From the NCBI RefSeq assembly GCF_008974185.1, contig NZ_BKZP01000009.1:1-64000 (forward strand): a DNA stretch of 64,000 bases, in the 5' to 3' direction. The translations under genes were made by a program, and so were the position numbers. This DNA comes from Weizmannia acidilactici. GTDB taxonomy: Bacteria; Bacillota; Bacilli; Bacillales; Bacillaceae_C. The notes beneath the pieces are model-generated. The model was not told the origin of the DNA and did not search any database. It worked only from the letters and a program-made list of their open reading frames with translations. Shown here in pieces: positions 8,778-60,079 of the stretch (within the stretch, counting starts at the first letter, position 1; each line of letters opens with the position of its first letter).

Positions 8778-8870
8778 ATCAGCGAAAGTGGGGGAAAAAT
8801 CGGCGGACATGTGCGGGAAATCAGCGGAGATGCCAAAAAAATCGGCGGGCAAGTGCAATAAATCAGCGTA
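8778..8870 (+). repeat. Array A: five 21-bp repeats (ATCRGCG cores)
   Basis: Five ATCRGCG cores start at 8778, 8799, 8820, 8841 and 8862, all exactly 21 bp apart. The fourth base of the core alternates A,G,A,G,A. Sequence between cores is A/G-rich but not conserved. It lies in the 475-bp gap between azoR and the protease gene. The rest of that gap holds the Rex box and unremarkable sequence. See the arrays at 15402, 23022, 38590 and 59220. Confidence 0.9.
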
Positions 8871-14292: not shown

Positions 14293-15273
14293 TTATTTAT
14301 TCGCAGTAAAAGTGGAGGAATAGAAATACTTTCTTCCCCGGTTATCGCCGTCTTGTGAAAGCTTAAGGCCTGCCAGCAGCCGCTTTGATAAGTCTGGGGA
14401 TTGTATATGAAGATACTCGCATAATTTTTGGTTGGTAAGGAAAGGGTGGAAAAGAAGGAAGTAATCGTTTACCGCCTGTTTGTGCGCATCCTTGCTGTAA
14501 GCACCGCAATGCGTGCAGTACCATTTTTTGTGTTGGCGCCTCATCCGGTACCGGCAACAGACGGGGCATTGGACACCCGTGAGCAGTTCTGCGGTTTGCA
14601 GATCGAAAGGGAGCGGATCTTGATGCACAAGCGGGGTATCGGATTGGAGTAGAACCCGGTTCCATTTCCGCATGTCCTTTTTACTTAGGAAATTTTTTTG
14701 GTAGATTTTTTGAAGGGATTTGATTTTTTGCAGAAGCCGGTGGCTGTGGCATACTTTTTTCTCATATATGCCCGGGGCGGAAGAAGTTTTTAAAACGGTG
14801 GCGGGATTGCTGAATACGATGAGGGTTTCAATCGGGGGCAGGAGAAGATGCTGCTTTACGGCCCAATCTTTTAATTGGATTTCCTGCATTTGGACTTGTG
14901 ATAAAGGATCGGAAAAACCTTCTTCTTTGCCGTCTTTTTCGCGGATCATCTGCCGGAAAACCGAATCGAAATAAATCGTTCCGCTGATATTTTTAACTTC
15001 GAGAATGAGAGCAAAATTCTGGCTTAAAATGAAAGTATCAATTTGAAAATAATAGTTGCCGTTTTGAATGCGCAGATCATGATAGATGGAAAACTCATCA
15101 TCCGGCAGAAAGCTGAAATAATAGTCGAGATTCTGTTCCCCTGAGAAACCCGCTTTTCTTTTTGCCAAATCTTTTTCAATTTCCGGGCGTTTCGGATGAT
15201 GGAGCGGCAACCTTCGCAATAATGCCTCATCCACCTGGATCCGGAACGGTATACTTCGTTTCTTTTCAATCAA
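14293..15273 (-). CDS. NERD-domain protein with C-terminal zinc ribbon (copy 2)
   Basis: 326 residues, paralogous to 94-1005. NERD landmarks are 'YYFQIDTFILSQNFALILEVKNISGTI' (about residues 90-118), which keeps the E-V-K motif expected of an active NERD nuclease fold, unlike copy 1 (E-Y-N). The zinc ribbon has CPVC near residue 233 and CTHC near 251, with a tail 'HKQAVNDYFLLF'. AGGAGG precedes the ATG. It sits between the glmS paralogue and a repeat array. The role is unknown; NERD proteins are thought to act on DNA. Confidence 0.78.
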   Translation of the reverse strand: MIEKKRSIPFRIQVDEALLRRLPLHHPKRPEIEKDLAKRKAGFSGEQNLDYYFSFLPDDEFSIYHDLRIQNGNYYFQIDTFILSQNFALILEVKNISGTIYFDSVFRQMIREKDGKEEGFSDPLSQVQMQEIQLKDWAVKQHLLLPPIETLIVFSNPATVLKTSSAPGIYEKKVCHSHRLLQKIKSLQKIYQKNFLSKKDMRKWNRVLLQSDTPLVHQDPLPFDLQTAELLTGVQCPVCCRYRMRRQHKKWYCTHCGAYSKDAHKQAVNDYFLLFHPFLTNQKLCEYLHIQSPDLSKRLLAGLKLSQDGDNRGRKYFYSSTFTANK

Positions 15274-15401: not shown

Positions 15402-15690
15402 ATCGGCGGAAAGACTTCGGAAATCGGCGGTGAGGTCCAAGAAATCAGCGGAAACATTGGAAAAATCGGCGGAGAGAATGTAAAAATCAGCGGTTCGTTT
15501 CAAACTGATACAAAAGTAGTCATTCAAGAGGGGGAGAGCACCATGAATAGAACCCGGATACTGGAGAAGTTAACATAACATCGACATTCCGAAAAAAATC
15601 AGTGAAAAAGGTTTGGAAATCGGCGGTGGGGTCCAAGAAATCAGCGGAAACATTGGAAAAATCGGCGGAAATCTCAAAAGAATCAGTGTG
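15402..15690 (+). repeat. Arrays B1 and B2: two five-core 21-bp arrays
   Basis: B1 cores (ATCRGCGG) start at 15402, 15423, 15444, 15465 and 15486; B2 cores at 15598, 15619, 15640, 15661 and 15682. Steps are all 21 bp. The last core of B1 and the first core of B2 are 112 bp apart, and the arrays repeat at 196 bp. The inner units of B1 and B2 are nearly identical (for example AATCAGCGGAAACATTGG in both). The linker shares 'GTCATTCAAGAGGG' and 'GTTAACATAACA' with the linker at 22910-23022. The rest of 15274-15931 shows only a weak hairpin near 15738-15765 that may end the glycosyltransferase gene. Confidence 0.92.
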
Positions 15691-22909: not shown

Positions 22910-23114
22910 ATCAGCTGTGCGTTTTTAATCGGTACAAAAAGAGTCATTCAAGAGGGTGGAACCTCGAAAAAGGCATTCGTTGGCCAATAGAGTTAACATA
23001 ACACAGCCTTCTTGGAGCATAATCGGCGAAAAAGCTTCCATAATCAGCGGGTGGGATTAAAAAATCAGCGGAAACATCGGAAAAATCGGCGGAAAGGATG
23101 AAAAAATCAGCTGT
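22910..23114 (+). repeat. Array C: five-core 21-bp array plus remnant of a preceding array
   Basis: Cores (ATCRGC) start at 23022, 23043, 23064, 23085 and 23106. A solitary core, ATCAGCTGTGCG, at 22910 has the same flank as the last core at 23106 and lies exactly 112 bp before the first core, the same distance as between B1 and B2. So an upstream array has decayed except for its last unit. The linker resembles that of B. It occupies most of the 480-bp gap between mvaK2 and yhfK. Confidence 0.9.
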
Positions 23115-38537: not shown

Positions 38538-38589
38538 TTGGTATCAAAATGAGATGCCATTTTTAAAAGAGGCAGCGTTTCTACCCTGC

Positions 38590-38878
38590 GCCGATATCTT
38601 GATTTTCCCGCCGATATTTTTGATCTTACCGCTGATTTATTGGTTAAGTCCGCTGATTTCTCCGGAGTTTCCGCCGATTCTTCCTTCGGTTGGAATGGGA
38701 CGGGCAGAGTTTTAGATTTGACCGCCGTTTTTTAAGTTTTTTCAAATATGGGTACGTCCTACTTCCCTTAGTTTTCTTCCTTTCGTCGATTTTTTGCATC
38801 TTTTCGCCGATATTTTTGACCTCTCCGCCGATTTCAAGAACAAGGCCGCCGATATTCCAGCGGTTTCCGCCGATTCCG
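38590..38878 (-). repeat. Arrays D1 and D2: two five-core 21-bp arrays, reverse orientation
   Basis: GCYGAT cores start at 38590, 38610, 38631, 38652, 38673 (D1) and 38785, 38806, 38827, 38848, 38869 (D2; the first reads GTCGAT). Steps are 21 bp except one of 20. The D1-last to D2-first distance is 112 bp. The linker resembles the one at 59304-59417 (ACCGCCG then T-rich). It lies between convergent genes. Confidence 0.92.
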
Positions 38879-40813: not shown

Positions 40814-42310
40814 TTATTGTTCTCTTCTCAAATCGCATTCCTGCAACGAAACCATTTTTGTTTTCTTCGCAAATTTATAGCCGAGCCACACAGCGATAAA
40901 GATCGGAAGTCCGATGTAAGAGACAAGCACGCTCTTCCAGTCAATGTGGCTACCTAAAAATGCGGAATAATTTTGGCCGAGAATGACAAGCGCACAAACG
41001 GTAAACGCGAAAATCGGGCCGAACGGGAACCATTTCGAACGGTAAGGAAGATCATTTAAATCCTTTCCTTGCGCGACATAAGCGCGGCGGAAACGGTAAT
41101 GGCTGATGGCAATGCCGAGCCATGCGATAAAACCGGACATGCCGGATGCGTTCAGCAGCCAGTTGTACACTGCCCCGTCGCCGAAAAAGGAAGCGAGAAA
41201 TGCCAGCGTGCCGACAAGGGAAGTGACAATCAAAGCATTTACCGGGACGCCGCGTTTATTCAGCTTCGCGAGGAATTTCGGCGCTTTTCCGTCACGTGCC
41301 AAATCCCAAAGCATCCGCGTTGAAGCATACATGCCGGAGTTTCCGGCGGATAGCACGGCGGTTAAAATAATCGCATTCATGACCGACGCCGCAAACGCAA
41401 CCCCGGCGCGCTGGAACACAATCGTAAACGGACTCATCGTAATGTCGTCGGCCGTTAATTTCGAATCCGTAAACGGGATCAACAGGCCGATGACAAAAAT
41501 CGCCAAAATATAGAAGAGCAAGATTCTCCAAAACACGGATTTCACCGCATGCGGAATCGTTTTCTTCGGTTCCACGCTCTCGCCGGCCGCAACTCCGAGC
41601 AGCTCCGTTCCCTGGAAAGAGAAGCCGGCTGCCATAAAGATGCCGAGCACGGCCAAAAATCCTCCGTGGATCGGGCCGTCTGCGACAGTGAAGTTGTGGA
41701 AGCCGATCGCTTTGCCGCCCATAATGCCGAAAATCATCAAAGCACCGACCACGATAAAAGCGATCACGGTCACGACTTTAATGATGGAAAACCAGTATTC
41801 CGCTTCCCCAAATCCTTTTACAGACAAGTAATTTAATAAAAACATAATGACAAGGCATGCCGCGCTCCATACAATGGAAGGCGTGTGCGGGAACCAAAAC
41901 TTCATAATAATCGTGGCCGCCGACAATTCGGCCGCAATCGTAATTGCCCAGTTGTACCAGTAATTCCAGCCGAGCGCGAATCCCAATGCAGGGTCCACAA
42001 ATTTTGTCGCATACGTGCTGAATGTCCCGGCAACCGGCATATACGCCGCCATTTCCGCGAGGCTTGTCATTAAAAAGAACACCATGACGCCGATTAACGA
42101 ATAGGCCAAAAGCGCTCCGCCCGGCCCTGCGCTGTGGATCGCGCCGCCGCTTGCCAAAAACAGCCCCGTCCCGATCGATCCGCCGAGCGAAATCATCGTC
42201 AGGTGGCGGGATTTTAACTTCCGTTTCAGCTCCGTAACTTCTCCTGTTTTCGGAATGGCAACCGGTCCTGTTCCGGCTGCAGTGCTTTGCCCTTTATAGA
42301 TGTCATCCAT
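40814..42310 (-). CDS. lysP: Lysine-type amino-acid permease (LysP-like, AAT family)
   Basis: 498 residues, 12 helices. It carries the AAT signature 'SRHLTMISLGGSIGTGLFLASG' (about residues 34-55), 'GFALGWNYWYNWAITIAAELSAA', 'FSFQGTELLGVAAGESVEP' and 'SAGNSGMYASTRMLWDLA', all typical of the LysP branch. The assignment to lysine is strongly supported by a lysine (L-box) riboswitch in the 5' leader. It imports lysine with protons. AGGAGTG precedes the ATG. Confidence 0.92.
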   Translation of the reverse strand: MDDIYKGQSTAAGTGPVAIPKTGEVTELKRKLKSRHLTMISLGGSIGTGLFLASGGAIHSAGPGGALLAYSLIGVMVFFLMTSLAEMAAYMPVAGTFSTYATKFVDPALGFALGWNYWYNWAITIAAELSAATIIMKFWFPHTPSIVWSAACLVIMFLLNYLSVKGFGEAEYWFSIIKVVTVIAFIVVGALMIFGIMGGKAIGFHNFTVADGPIHGGFLAVLGIFMAAGFSFQGTELLGVAAGESVEPKKTIPHAVKSVFWRILLFYILAIFVIGLLIPFTDSKLTADDITMSPFTIVFQRAGVAFAASVMNAIILTAVLSAGNSGMYASTRMLWDLARDGKAPKFLAKLNKRGVPVNALIVTSLVGTLAFLASFFGDGAVYNWLLNASGMSGFIAWLGIAISHYRFRRAYVAQGKDLNDLPYRSKWFPFGPIFAFTVCALVILGQNYSAFLGSHIDWKSVLVSYIGLPIFIAVWLGYKFAKKTKMVSLQECDLRREQ

Positions 42311-42386: not shown

Positions 42387-42426
42387 GTCGCATATACCCT
42401 CCATCATACCTTCCGTAGATAGCTCA

Positions 42427-42612
42427 ACACATATGCGAGAGGATTAGCGCATATGTGACAGTTCTGTTCCTGTTCGGAAACAGCCCCAACATGGCGGTCC
42501 GGGATCCTCCGCCACATTTCGGCAGCTTTTCCTTTCAATCGGGGTCCTTAACTTTACCCGTGTCTCACCCAACTTACTCATAAAAGCTGCGACCTCTACC
42601 TCACCGGATTTG
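42427..42612 (-). promoter_or_regulatory. Lysine riboswitch (L-box) controlling lysP
   Basis: On the minus strand the conserved L-box blocks appear in order: GGTAGAGGTCGCAG, ATGAGTAAGTTGGG, GAAAGGAAAAGCTGCCGAAATG, GGATCCCGGACC, TTGGGGCTGTTTCC and GAACTGTCAC. The 3' P1 strand continues into a 10-bp hairpin (CACATATGCG/CGCATATGTG, 42428-42457). With lysine bound, the downstream terminator at 42359-42386 should form and switch lysP off. Confidence 0.93.
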
Positions 42613-51490: not shown

Positions 51491-52095
51491 GTGCGCCTGG
51501 CATGGCTGCACGCTATAGGGTGAAAGTCCCGAATCGTGAAGGCAGTAGTAGCGATAGCTAACGCAAGGGTGTCCGTAGTTATGCGGAATCTGAAGGAAGC
51601 GGGCGGCAAACCTCCGATTCTTGAGGAACACGAACCTCATATAAGGCTAGGTATTACTGGATGAGCTTACCAGACAAAGCAAAGTCCATACTGCCAAAGG
51701 TGATATAGAGTAAATGAGGCAGATAGGTGGAGGGAAATAGTCTTACCCGGTGATTGAAACGCCGACTCAGTTGGTAACCAGTCTAGTGATAGATTGATGA
51801 ACAATCAGAAGTCAGCAGAGGTCATCGTACAAATAAGGTAGCTCCTCATTTGGAAGGACTGAACTGAACCATGTTCAATGAAGCAGATAATCCAAAGATG
51901 GACTTACTCAGTGGACAGAAACGGTGAATTTCGTGGGAGACATTGAGAGGGCTGAGAACTAAAGTGGTTTAAGGAGAGACAGAAAAGCATAACGGACAGT
52001 GAGACTACCCGACTGACTTCATGGAACTGCCGTATACGGAACCGTACGTGCGGTGGTGTGAGAGGACGGAGGTTAGTTATCTCCTCCTACTCGAT
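51491..52095 (+). mobile_element. ORF-less group IIC intron, copy 1
   Basis: About 605 bp from GTGCGCC to CTACTCGAT. The sequence follows the Oceanobacillus iheyensis IIC intron closely (from memory): 'TATAGGGTGAAAGTCCCGAA', 'GGCAGTAGTAGCGATAGC', 'GGAATCTGAAGGAAGCGG', 'GAAGTCAGCAGAGGTCAT' and domain V 'GCCGTATACGGAACCG' with 'CGTGCGGTGGTGTGAG', then domain VI GGACGGAGGTTAG. Domain IV holds about 200 bp with no reverse transcriptase gene. In domain V the catalytic triad is TGC where copy 2 has CGC. It is inserted after a terminator, the usual IIC target. Confidence 0.88.
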
Positions 52096-56895: not shown

Positions 56896-57551
56896 GTGCG
56901 CCTAGCATGGCTGCACGCTATAGGGTGAAAGTCCCGAAACGCGAAGGCAGTAGTAGCGATAGCCTAACGCAAGGGTGTTCGTAGTGATGCGGAATCTGAA
57001 GGAAGCGGGCGGCAAACCTCCGATTCTTGAGGAACATGAACCTCATACAAGGCTAGGTATCATTGGATGAGCTTGCGTAACAAAGCAAAGTCCGTACTGC
57101 CAAAGGTGATACAGCGTAAATGAGGCAGATAGGTGGAGGGAAAGAGTGCAGTCTTACCCAGGGAGGTCTGACTGATATGCCGACTCAGTTGGTAACTAAC
57201 CTAGTGATAGGTTATTGAACAGTCAGAAGTCAGCAGAGGTCATAGTACAAATAAGGTAGTTCCTCATTTGGAAGGACTGAACCATGAAGGAGTGTGGAAT
57301 AAACTCGAATTTCACTTTGTTCAATGAAGCAGACAATCCAAAGATGGACTTACTCAATGGATAGAAACGGTGAATTCTGTGGGAGACATTGAGAGGGCTG
57401 AGAACTAAAGTGGTTTAAGGAGAGACAGAAAAGCATAACGGATAGTGAGATACCAAATCACTATCCGACTGACTTCATGGAACCGCCGTATACGGAACCG
57501 TACGTACGGTGGTGTGAGAGGACGGAGGTTAGTCACCTCCTCCTACTTGAT
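56896..57551 (+). mobile_element. ORF-less group IIC intron, copy 2
   Basis: About 656 bp from GTGCGCC to CTACTTGAT, about 90 per cent like copy 1 by eye. Differences include an insertion near 57148-57175, and in domain IV a longer region with a perfect hairpin, CGGATAGTGA and TCACTATCCG (near 57438-57466), that copy 1 lacks. Domain V 'CCGCCGTATACGGAACC' keeps the CGC triad and the 3' arm 'GTACGTACGGTGGTG'. No reverse transcriptase is encoded. Both splice boundaries look intact. Confidence 0.88.
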
Positions 57552-59136: not shown

Positions 59137-59219
59137 GATTCGGACATAGGATTGAAAATTCAATAAATTTCTGCGGATCCTTCGATTTTAGTAAAGGGGC
59201 GGAGGATCTTTTTCTTTTC

Positions 59220-60079
59220 GCTGATTTCTCGTACGGTTCAGCTGATTTTATTGGTCTTCCCGCTGATTTCTTGGGGAAATTCGCCGATTTTTTCAATGTT
59301 TTCGCTGATTCCTCTAAAATGAGTACGCTGACCGGCTGCTGTTTTAAGTTTCACCGCCGGTTTTTCAACTATTTTCTAATAGAGATGCGGCTATCATTTC
59401 TTTTTTTCTACTTTTCGCCGATTTCTTGTACCTTTACGCTGATTTTTTCGAACCTTCCGCTGATTTCCAAGGAATGTCCGCCGATATTTCCGGAGTTTCC
59501 GCTGATTCCGGAAAAAGAGAGGAGGAGAACGGCCGGAGTTTCAGACTATAACGCCGTTTCTAGGGGAAATCTTGCAAAAGCTCAGTGCCGGTTCCTCCTT
59601 TTTTTGTCCAGCGCCGATTATTTGTGCGTTTTCGCTGATTTATTGGCCTTTTCGCTGATTTTTTGAGGAGATTCGCCGATTTCCCTCTAGTTTTCGCTGA
59701 TTCCTCTAAAATGAGTAGGCTGACTGGCTGCTGTTTCAAGTTTCACCGCCGGTTTTTCAACTATTTTCTAATAGAGATGCGGCTATCATTTCTTTTTTTC
59801 TACTTTTCGCCGATTTCTTGTACCTTTCCGCTGATTTCCAAGGAATGTCCGCCGATATTTCCGGAGTTTCCGCTGATTCCGGAAAAAGAGAGGAGGAGAA
59901 CGGTCGGAGTTTCAGACTATAACGCCGTTTCTAGGGGAAATCTTACAAAAGTTCAGTGCCGCTTCCTCCTTTTTTTTTGCCCAGCGCCGATTATTTGTGC
60001 GGCACCTCCGATTTAATAGGTCTTCCCGCTGATTACTTGAGGAAGTCCGCCAATTTCCCTCTAGTTTCCGCTTATTCCG
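59220..60079 (-). repeat. Arrays E1-E5: long locus of five-core 21-bp arrays in 196-bp modules
   Basis: GCYGAT cores: E1 59220, 59241, 59262, 59283, 59304; E2 59417, 59438, 59459, 59480, 59501; E3 59613, 59634, 59654, 59675, 59696; E4 59809, 59830, 59851, 59872 (only four); E5 59986, 60007, 60028, 60049, 60070 (some cores altered). Linkers are 112-114 bp from last core to next first core. Two linker types alternate (E1-E2 and E3-E4; E2-E3 and E4-E5), and E3-E4 repeats E1-E2 almost exactly 392 bp away. The two ORFs that appear here (near 59271 and 59663) are by-products of the repetition. Confidence 0.93.

Follow-up and report, generated by a model that had tools for sequence, protein, structure and literature searches.

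Intergenic DNA of the window, the 64-kb stretch analysed here, carries arrays in which a short core, CGCYGAT, recurs every 20 or 21 bp, and arrays built on the same frame with other core words occur in other Bacillales. We propose that these arrays are cooperative binding sites for a putative DNA-binding protein that marks the origin region of the chromosome, a reading to which we give a probability of about 0.4.

Phased multi-core arrays in the window and its genome

A strict scan for GCYGAT or its reverse ATCRGC on the same strand gave ten chains at 20–21-bp steps: seven of five cores, two of four and one of three. When CGCYGAT was matched with at most one mismatch, 11 arrays were found at five loci (8778; 15402 and 15598; 23022; 38589 and 38784; 59219–60075). 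Ten of them have five cores and one (59808) has four; 41 of their 43 steps are 21 bp long and the other two 20 bp. The initial annotation's tally of arrays, loci, core numbers and 20-bp steps was thus reproduced exactly. Its claim of a fixed phase also held: of the 67 distances of at most 120 bp between same-strand neighbours in the window, 36 were 20 or 21 bp, and 300 dinucleotide shuffles of the window nearly never gave such spacing (mean 0.08, maximum 2). All window arrays are intergenic, which together with the phase supports the earlier view of intergenic elements in which several sites are read together.

The four arrays on the minus strand lie at 8778–8868 (steps of 21, 21, 21 and 21 bp), 15402–15492, 15598–15688 (one mismatch in the first and in the last core) and 23022–23112, each with five cores. 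On the plus strand, the five-core array at 38589–38678 starts with a 20-bp step, and that at 38784–38874 has one mismatch in its first core. The block of 59219–60075, also on the plus strand, opens with a five-core array at 59219–59309 (one mismatch in the second core), followed by an inter-array linker that measured 106 bp (59310–59415). The core scan then placed five-core arrays at 59416–59506 and 59612–59701, the latter with a second step of 20 bp, a four-core array at 59808–59877 that has one 21-bp unit fewer than its near-copy at 59416, and a degenerate five-core array at 59985–60075 with one mismatch in three of its five cores.

Several familiar identities were tried and rejected. Two spurious ORFs over the block (59271–59666 and 59663–60016) have no Pfam match, and the 20-bp steps break the reading frame, so the repeats are not coding sequence. 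CRISPR arrays consist of near-identical 21–48-bp repeats with unique spacers of similar length; here the constant part is only the 7–10-bp core, and the 13–14-bp spacers are homologous between arrays of the window's genome. The core resembles the -10 motif GCCGATAA of SigD/FliA promoters, but the -35 geometry does not fit: such promoters have TAAA about 15 bp upstream of GCCGATAW, and a TAAA preceding the core, where present, lies 11–12 bp upstream as read from arrays with a 20–21-bp period. No Rfam family was found at any array of the window, and seven gathering-level Rfam matches lie elsewhere in the window. The window also contains two sets of group II intron RNA matches, at 51572–52095 and 56978–57551 (RF02001, RF01998 and RF00029), and a lysine riboswitch at 42412–42606, upstream of an amino acid permease gene (40814–42310).

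Across the window's own genome (3.19 Mb, 123 contigs), triple-core matches numbered 108 and matches to the reversed pattern 0. The stretches around the matches listed held 47 arrays, 36 with five cores, nine with four, two with three and none with more than five; their steps comprised 161 of 21 bp, 13 of 20 bp and one of 19 bp (mean 20.9 bp). Where arrays stand in series they follow a period of about 197 bp, with 18 of 21 gaps measuring 104–107 bp, and most four-core members are one 21-bp unit shorter. The spacers are homologous unit by unit between arrays, which indicates that a single five-core unit was copied to make them and hence that the number five partly reflects common descent. An ATACC...GGTAT-type dyad precedes the first core by about 20 bp in the arrays of L180, L184, L189, L193 and window 15598; no common theme was found among the genes beside these five arrays (MFS/DUF2524, Fe-S/M20 peptidase, Clp-type ATPase/permease, NERD/glycosyltransferase and DsrE/sulfurtransferase genes).

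Lineage-specific core words in Bacillales

We searched a breadth sample of 397 genomes from 135 genera of one order (Bacillales, judged from named relatives). CGCYGAT triples at array steps were found in 41 of the 397 genomes and 25 of the 135 genera, and the reversed control in one genome (G126); a few of the 41 (for example G203, G246, G333 and G135) hold regular tandem repeats or single matches and may be unrelated. Three copies of GCNRATAWA at 19–21-bp steps were found in 97 genomes and 39 genera, with the reversed control in five; some of these places are near-identical tandem repeats (G009, G315, G364 and parts of G166, G179 and G295). For CGCYGAT triples, the matches listed from named genomes include Alkalihalobacillus, Rossellomorea, Neobacillus, Lysinibacillus, Alkalibacillus, Salipaludibacillus, Sporolactobacillus, Sporosarcina, Domibacillus and others, and most of those from outside Bacillales look like chance or simple tandem repeats. 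Outside the order, the GCNRATAWA pattern was present in almost none of a 299-genome phylum sample, where besides the window's own genome only G648 matched, which also matches the reversed control. The shorter GCYGAT pattern matched seven of 60 relatives and its reversed control also seven (G016, G017, G022, G025, G027, G028 and G041), and some of the forward matches (G014, G022 and G030) are simple tandem repeats. The reversed pattern TAGYCG, taken three times at 20–22 bp, gave up to 32 matches in a genome (G027). Most of the matching genomes belong to a single large genus of the family that includes the window's organism, and the matches may be simple tandem repeats or arrays that use a further core word.

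De novo repeat finding recovered other words in the same 20–21-bp frame, namely GGCAGATAAA, CGGATCATAAA, CGCGGATAWA and (A/G)GCTAATAAA, and a further word, GACGCATAAA, was found in an array after a 5S gene. Among genomes with places listed, most have one dominant word, and several words are mixed in G108, G166 and G179. As GC..AT is built into the GCNRATAWA pattern, the words actually in use are probably more varied than those it recovers. These data show that the core word differs between lineages and that the frame is common to them. Two further repeat types were noted: in Alkalibacillus and like genomes (L208–L211 and L138), a CGCTGATAAA array is followed by a second series of similar period with the core (A/G)CGCCA(A/G)A, and Lysinibacillus xylanilyticus (L159, 6186–6900) has 19–22-bp phased repeats with the core CCGTCG (reverse CGACGG).

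Core number also varies. Six cores are present in 14 of the 15 arrays of Alkalihalobacillus sp. CinArs1 (G183) and in 11 of the 15 of A. algicola AmN0-13 (G053), with a mean step of 20.3–20.4 bp; Rossellomorea and Neobacillus arrays mostly have five or six cores, and Lysinibacillus arrays have 4 to 16. Five is a trait of the window's genome or species and is not universal. The earlier statement of exactly five cores therefore applies to the window's genome, where 36 of 47 arrays have five and none more, and fails for Alkalihalobacillus and Lysinibacillus.

Cores and spacing are conserved while spacers diverge

Arrays of G053 and G183 were paired by flank similarity, giving six orthologous pairs of six cores each, and spacers of equal length were compared. 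Within pairs, 1 of 216 fixed positions of the core differed, as did 7 of 36 at the Y position and 102 of 309 in the spacers, and the order of steps was identical in three of the six. Between paralogous arrays of the window's own genome, core divergence stayed at 3–4% while spacer divergence ran from 8% to 54% over four bins. Core conservation is somewhat inflated in the orthologous comparison, since all its arrays had been found through their cores, but both members of an orthologous pair keep the full number of cores and a near-identical phase, unlike drifting relics. Core words and spacing seem to be kept by selection.

A preference for the 3' ends of genes

Gene context was counted on a hand-made list of 73 named and 19 fetched loci, with 98 Bacillales clusters from outside the window's genome; 75 were placed, and three clusters inside ORFs and 20 at edges were left out. 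Of the 75, 26 were convergent, 6 divergent, 25 tandem on the same strand and 18 tandem on the opposite strand, and the corresponding background of 229 array-free gaps was 35, 57, 79 and 58. Arrays are thus enriched between convergent genes (P = 7e-4) and depleted in divergent gaps (P = 0.0016), and in tandem gaps they show no strand preference (25 against 18, P = 0.36). In the window's own genome, 11 of 24 clusters were convergent (P = 0.04). In the two Alkalihalobacillus genomes, 22 of the 23 placeable arrays lie 3' of at least one ORF-called gene, the exception being the rrn-downstream array L238.

Arrays were also found downstream of 5S rRNA genes on the same strand (L206, L207, L238 and L251), and at L206, L207 and L238 two successive arrays stand behind one rRNA operon, with the core words CGCGGAT and CGCTGAT. 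Of 30 5S loci returned by a 5S rRNA search, five had a downstream array of four or more cores (L263, L264, L266, L277 and L273, the last being the same place as L238). The other 25, including the only 5S detected in the window's genome, had no such array in the sequence examined; among them, L260 has only 191 bp downstream and L265 has a chain of three.

Origin-proximal clustering, strongest in G390

The clearest positional signal came from G390, which has a 3.83-Mb contig with dnaA at 100.5–101.8 kb; sampled GC skew there is above zero between 99 kb and 2.2 Mb and below zero between 2.4 and 3.8 Mb. Its arrays were merged from the 100 triple matches listed, out of 116, and from 67 quadruple matches, which by estimate leaves about two triples unlisted. 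Among the matches listed there are 25 arrays, at 118–1295 kb. Twenty-four of these 25 lie at most 820 kb from oriC, where 43% would be expected (P = 2e-8), and the arm that starts mnmE-gidA-gidB-noc-parB carries every one of them (P = 4e-6); both P values assume independence and are optimistic, because about two triples are unlisted and some neighbours may be local copies, with shared spacer sequence in the arrays at 511.8/513.2 kb and 447/451 kb. Long ORFs are plentiful in the large array-free parts of G390. Besides the arrays, G390 has noc and parB-family genes and, at separate places, parS-like sequences (109.7, 112.3 and 115.5 kb, in L299).

In G183, skew samples were negative on contig C1 and positive on C2, as for single arms. 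With three arrays at contig ends left out, C2, whose first bases lie within an rRNA operon, has ten arrays in the first 893 of its 1370 kb, and C1 has two, at 909 and 1062 of 1672 kb, in the origin-side half (its high end faces the origin). Four arrays are listed for G103, whose word is GCTAATAAA. Three are at 0.96–1.12 Mb, within about 0.5 Mb of the origin placed by a skew flip between 1.25 and 1.45 Mb; the fourth, at 4.16 Mb near the terminus, counts against the origin reading. G133 is neutral, with two arrays among the matches listed at about 730 and 980 kb from dnaA.

Loci of the window's own genome were placed by synteny on the complete sister genome G002, whose origin, inferred from skew and rRNA strands, is at about 1.38 Mb. 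The window contig maps 270–410 kb from this origin, L186 150–160 kb and L187 about 75 kb, and two more loci map at 660 and 830 kb. In total, 11 of 26 examined clusters lie at most 410 kb from the origin, one maps to 2.97 Mb of G002 (L184) and most others are unplaced. The arm differs, being left-equivalent in G390 and mainly the other one in G183 and in the window's genome. Overall, G390 has a very strong origin bias, two genomes support such a bias, and the window's own genome has a moderate one. Orientation of whole arrays relative to the origin was rejected as a signal: 19 of 25 point towards oriC in G390, but the split on G183 C2 is five to five.

Gain, loss and mobility

Three of the four same-genus genomes (G001, G003 and G004) have no array with any pattern used, so the system is dispensable or recently gained. 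De novo searches found no arrays in the sister stretches L228–L231, in eight same-genus 5S stretches or in the window genome's own 5S stretch, and no five-chain in 1.09 Mb of G002. The array at 23022 lies within about 320 bp of extra DNA that is missing from the sisters G002 and G003, with no exact ends seen, and the block with the arrays at 15402 and 15598 and the gene at 14293–15273 has no counterpart by blastn in the sister stretches of G003 and G002. In A. algicola, the near-copy pairs L196/L199 and L200/L201 have array sequence in common and unrelated flanks, which indicates that units spread within the genome; in G183, no clean empty site corresponds to L199. Neither target duplications nor consistent terminal repeats were demonstrated at the arrays. 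An origin from phages, plasmids or defence systems was rejected, since a scan of a viral collection with the CGCTGATA pattern matched one viral contig only. With the low-complexity filter on, blastn gave no plasmid match for one Lysinibacillus array or for the window block and no phage match for the same Lysinibacillus array. Separately, an 8-kb region of sulfur-metabolism genes with one array (L184 and L195) is 99.9% identical between the window's genome and G002 at 2.97 Mb, and the window region is only about 73–86% identical to G002; the 8-kb region would be explained by recent transfer or contamination.

A putative reader protein and rival explanations

A chromosome-organising protein that binds cooperatively was already suggested in the initial annotation. 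Cores and phase are conserved while spacers drift, and the arrays are origin-proximal in G390; both points favour that idea, while the reader protein itself stays putative. In the mechanism that we envisage, each core 5'-CGCYGAT-3' together with the AT-rich DNA after it would form one asymmetric contact site. Cores spaced 20–21 bp apart, about two helical turns, would let five or six protein units line up on the same side of the helix, where they may bind cooperatively and assemble along the array. Asymmetric 7-bp contacts once per two turns, with a species-set total of five or six, would fit such an assembly. Bound arrays would then mark the origin-proximal chromosome for polar anchoring, origin segregation or positioning of the nucleoid-occlusion type, with RacA/ram, RefZ/RBM and the Noc sites of B. 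subtilis as functional parallels. Reader and sites would co-evolve, and arrays would spread by copying of whole multi-core units, as the lineage-specific core words suggest. The broader proposal, that the arrays form an undescribed class of chromosome landmark in Bacillales, with a species-set number of sites, a lineage word and a fast-evolving putative reader that marks or anchors the origin-proximal part, we hold a little more tentatively.

The patchy distribution could also be that of a dispersed selfish element, REP- or MITE-like, whose multi-core unit is the recognition site of a trans-acting transposase or recombinase. Copies would pile up in harmless places (3' ends, convergent gaps and the DNA after rRNA operons), and each lineage would have its own core through the specificity of its mobilising enzyme. 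The three array-free genomes of the same genus and the 1.09 Mb of G002 without a five-chain fit this explanation, as do the extra DNA at 23022, the tandem copies of a ~197-bp unit and the A. algicola near-copies in unrelated flanks; the 3'-end preference resembles that reported for REPs (PMC3733652). It accounts for patchiness and spread at least as well as a protein reader does, and less well for the constraint at orthologous sites, where arrays in two species keep their cores intact while spacers have diverged, unlike a passive relic. The cores are moreover non-palindromic with no consistent hairpin, and the G390 arrays cluster on one arm near the origin. The lack of demonstrated target duplications and consistent terminal repeats, the single viral contig in one viral scan and the absence of plasmid and phage blastn matches for the arrays tried also count against it. 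We regard a selfish element as a serious rival, somewhat less probable than the protein reading. A hybrid is possible, in which an element spreads and is then retained for chromosome organisation.

The convergent enrichment (26 of 75 against 35 of 229), the divergent depletion (6 of 75 against 57 of 229) and the same-strand arrays behind 5S genes, at the four loci named above and at five of the 30 5S loci searched (L238 and L273 being the same place), would suit an element of transcription ends or topology. Such a roadblock, insulator or topoisomerase/gyrase site after strong transcription units would stop read-through or remove supercoils. Yet 25 of the 30 5S loci have no array with at least four cores, a gyrase site would not be expected to change its core word, and the array-free parts of G390 are rich in long ORFs. 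Since rRNA operons lie mostly near the origin, the association of arrays with rRNA may be secondary, and we consider this explanation unlikely. The repeats might instead act in the transcript, as protein-binding or structured RNA, an alternative raised earlier for which the folding data give little support. Fold z-scores were obtained with the cores kept fixed and the spacers shuffled. Group means on the core strand ranged from about 0 to -1: -0.47 in the window's genome (44 arrays), -1.00 in Alkalihalobacillus (14), 0.05 in Rossellomorea (11), 0.02 in Neobacillus (9), -0.94 in the Alkalibacillus group (9) and -0.48 in Lysinibacillus (15). Single arrays reach -3.6, and the 75 nt after arrays of the window's genome average -0.40 (n = 47). 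RNA folding is a weak, uneven tendency and not a conserved structure. The lower group means, the single arrays that beat their shuffles and the rrn-downstream arrays on the rRNA strand favour an RNA role. Against it stand the means near zero in Rossellomorea and Neobacillus, similarly low scores for the two strands in the window's genome and in Alkalihalobacillus, tandem gaps without strand preference, the lack of an Rfam family at the window arrays and a 20–21-bp helical period for which single-stranded RNA offers no obvious reason; an RNA element thus appears highly improbable.

No description of the repeat was found in Rfam or among the open-access papers listed, judged from titles and the beginnings of abstracts, and to that extent the earlier judgement that it is undescribed stands. 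Only 7–10 bp per 20–21 bp are conserved and the word changes by lineage, so similarity searches miss the arrays. If the protein reading is right, up to a quarter of the sampled Bacillales genomes carry an overlooked chromosome-marking system. The arrays would then serve as a defined bait with which to isolate a new chromosome-organising protein, and the matched specificities of readers and sites would form a natural series in which to study the evolution of DNA recognition. They would also allow one to ask whether the RacA-type origin marking of B. subtilis is one solution among several.

Comparison with known systems

Iterons and plasmid partition arrays are helically phased direct repeats that bind several copies of a protein. 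The arrays described here differ in being chromosomal and numerous in each genome, with only a 7–10-bp core conserved, and no replication or partition gene was recognised adjacent to them. The DNA uptake sequence dialects of Neisseriaceae are species-specific word variants of one genomic signal. Uptake sequences, however, do not stand in phased arrays, and no evidence of uptake was found for the arrays here. REP and BIME elements form dispersed, lineage-specific families downstream of genes and between convergent genes, according to PMC3733652. The arrays share this 3'-end and convergent location, but REPs are 20–40-bp palindromes with GTAG or CGTC tags, whereas the arrays are non-palindromic phased direct repeats.

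Among protein-read landmarks, the sites of Noc and ParB (parS) are biased to or around the origin, and are palindromes of 14 bp or 16 bp. The array cores are unlike such palindromic single sites, and in G390 the parS-like sites are separate. RacA/ram is similar in having many dispersed chromosomal binding sites near the origin. Those sites lie mainly left of oriC, and the G390 arrays stand on the mnmE-gidA-gidB-noc-parB side of dnaA, which corresponds to the left in B. subtilis; the arrays of G183 and of the window's genome, by contrast, are mainly on the other arm. The ram sequence is a GC-rich inverted repeat, whereas the array cores are direct repeats with AT-rich flanks. The RBMs read by RefZ are origin-region landmarks whose position is conserved across Bacillus, as stated in PMC6657595, and we propose that the arrays too are positional landmarks of the origin region. 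RBMs are five nearly palindromic single sites, whereas each closely examined genome here has at least 15 arrays, written in lineage-specific words.
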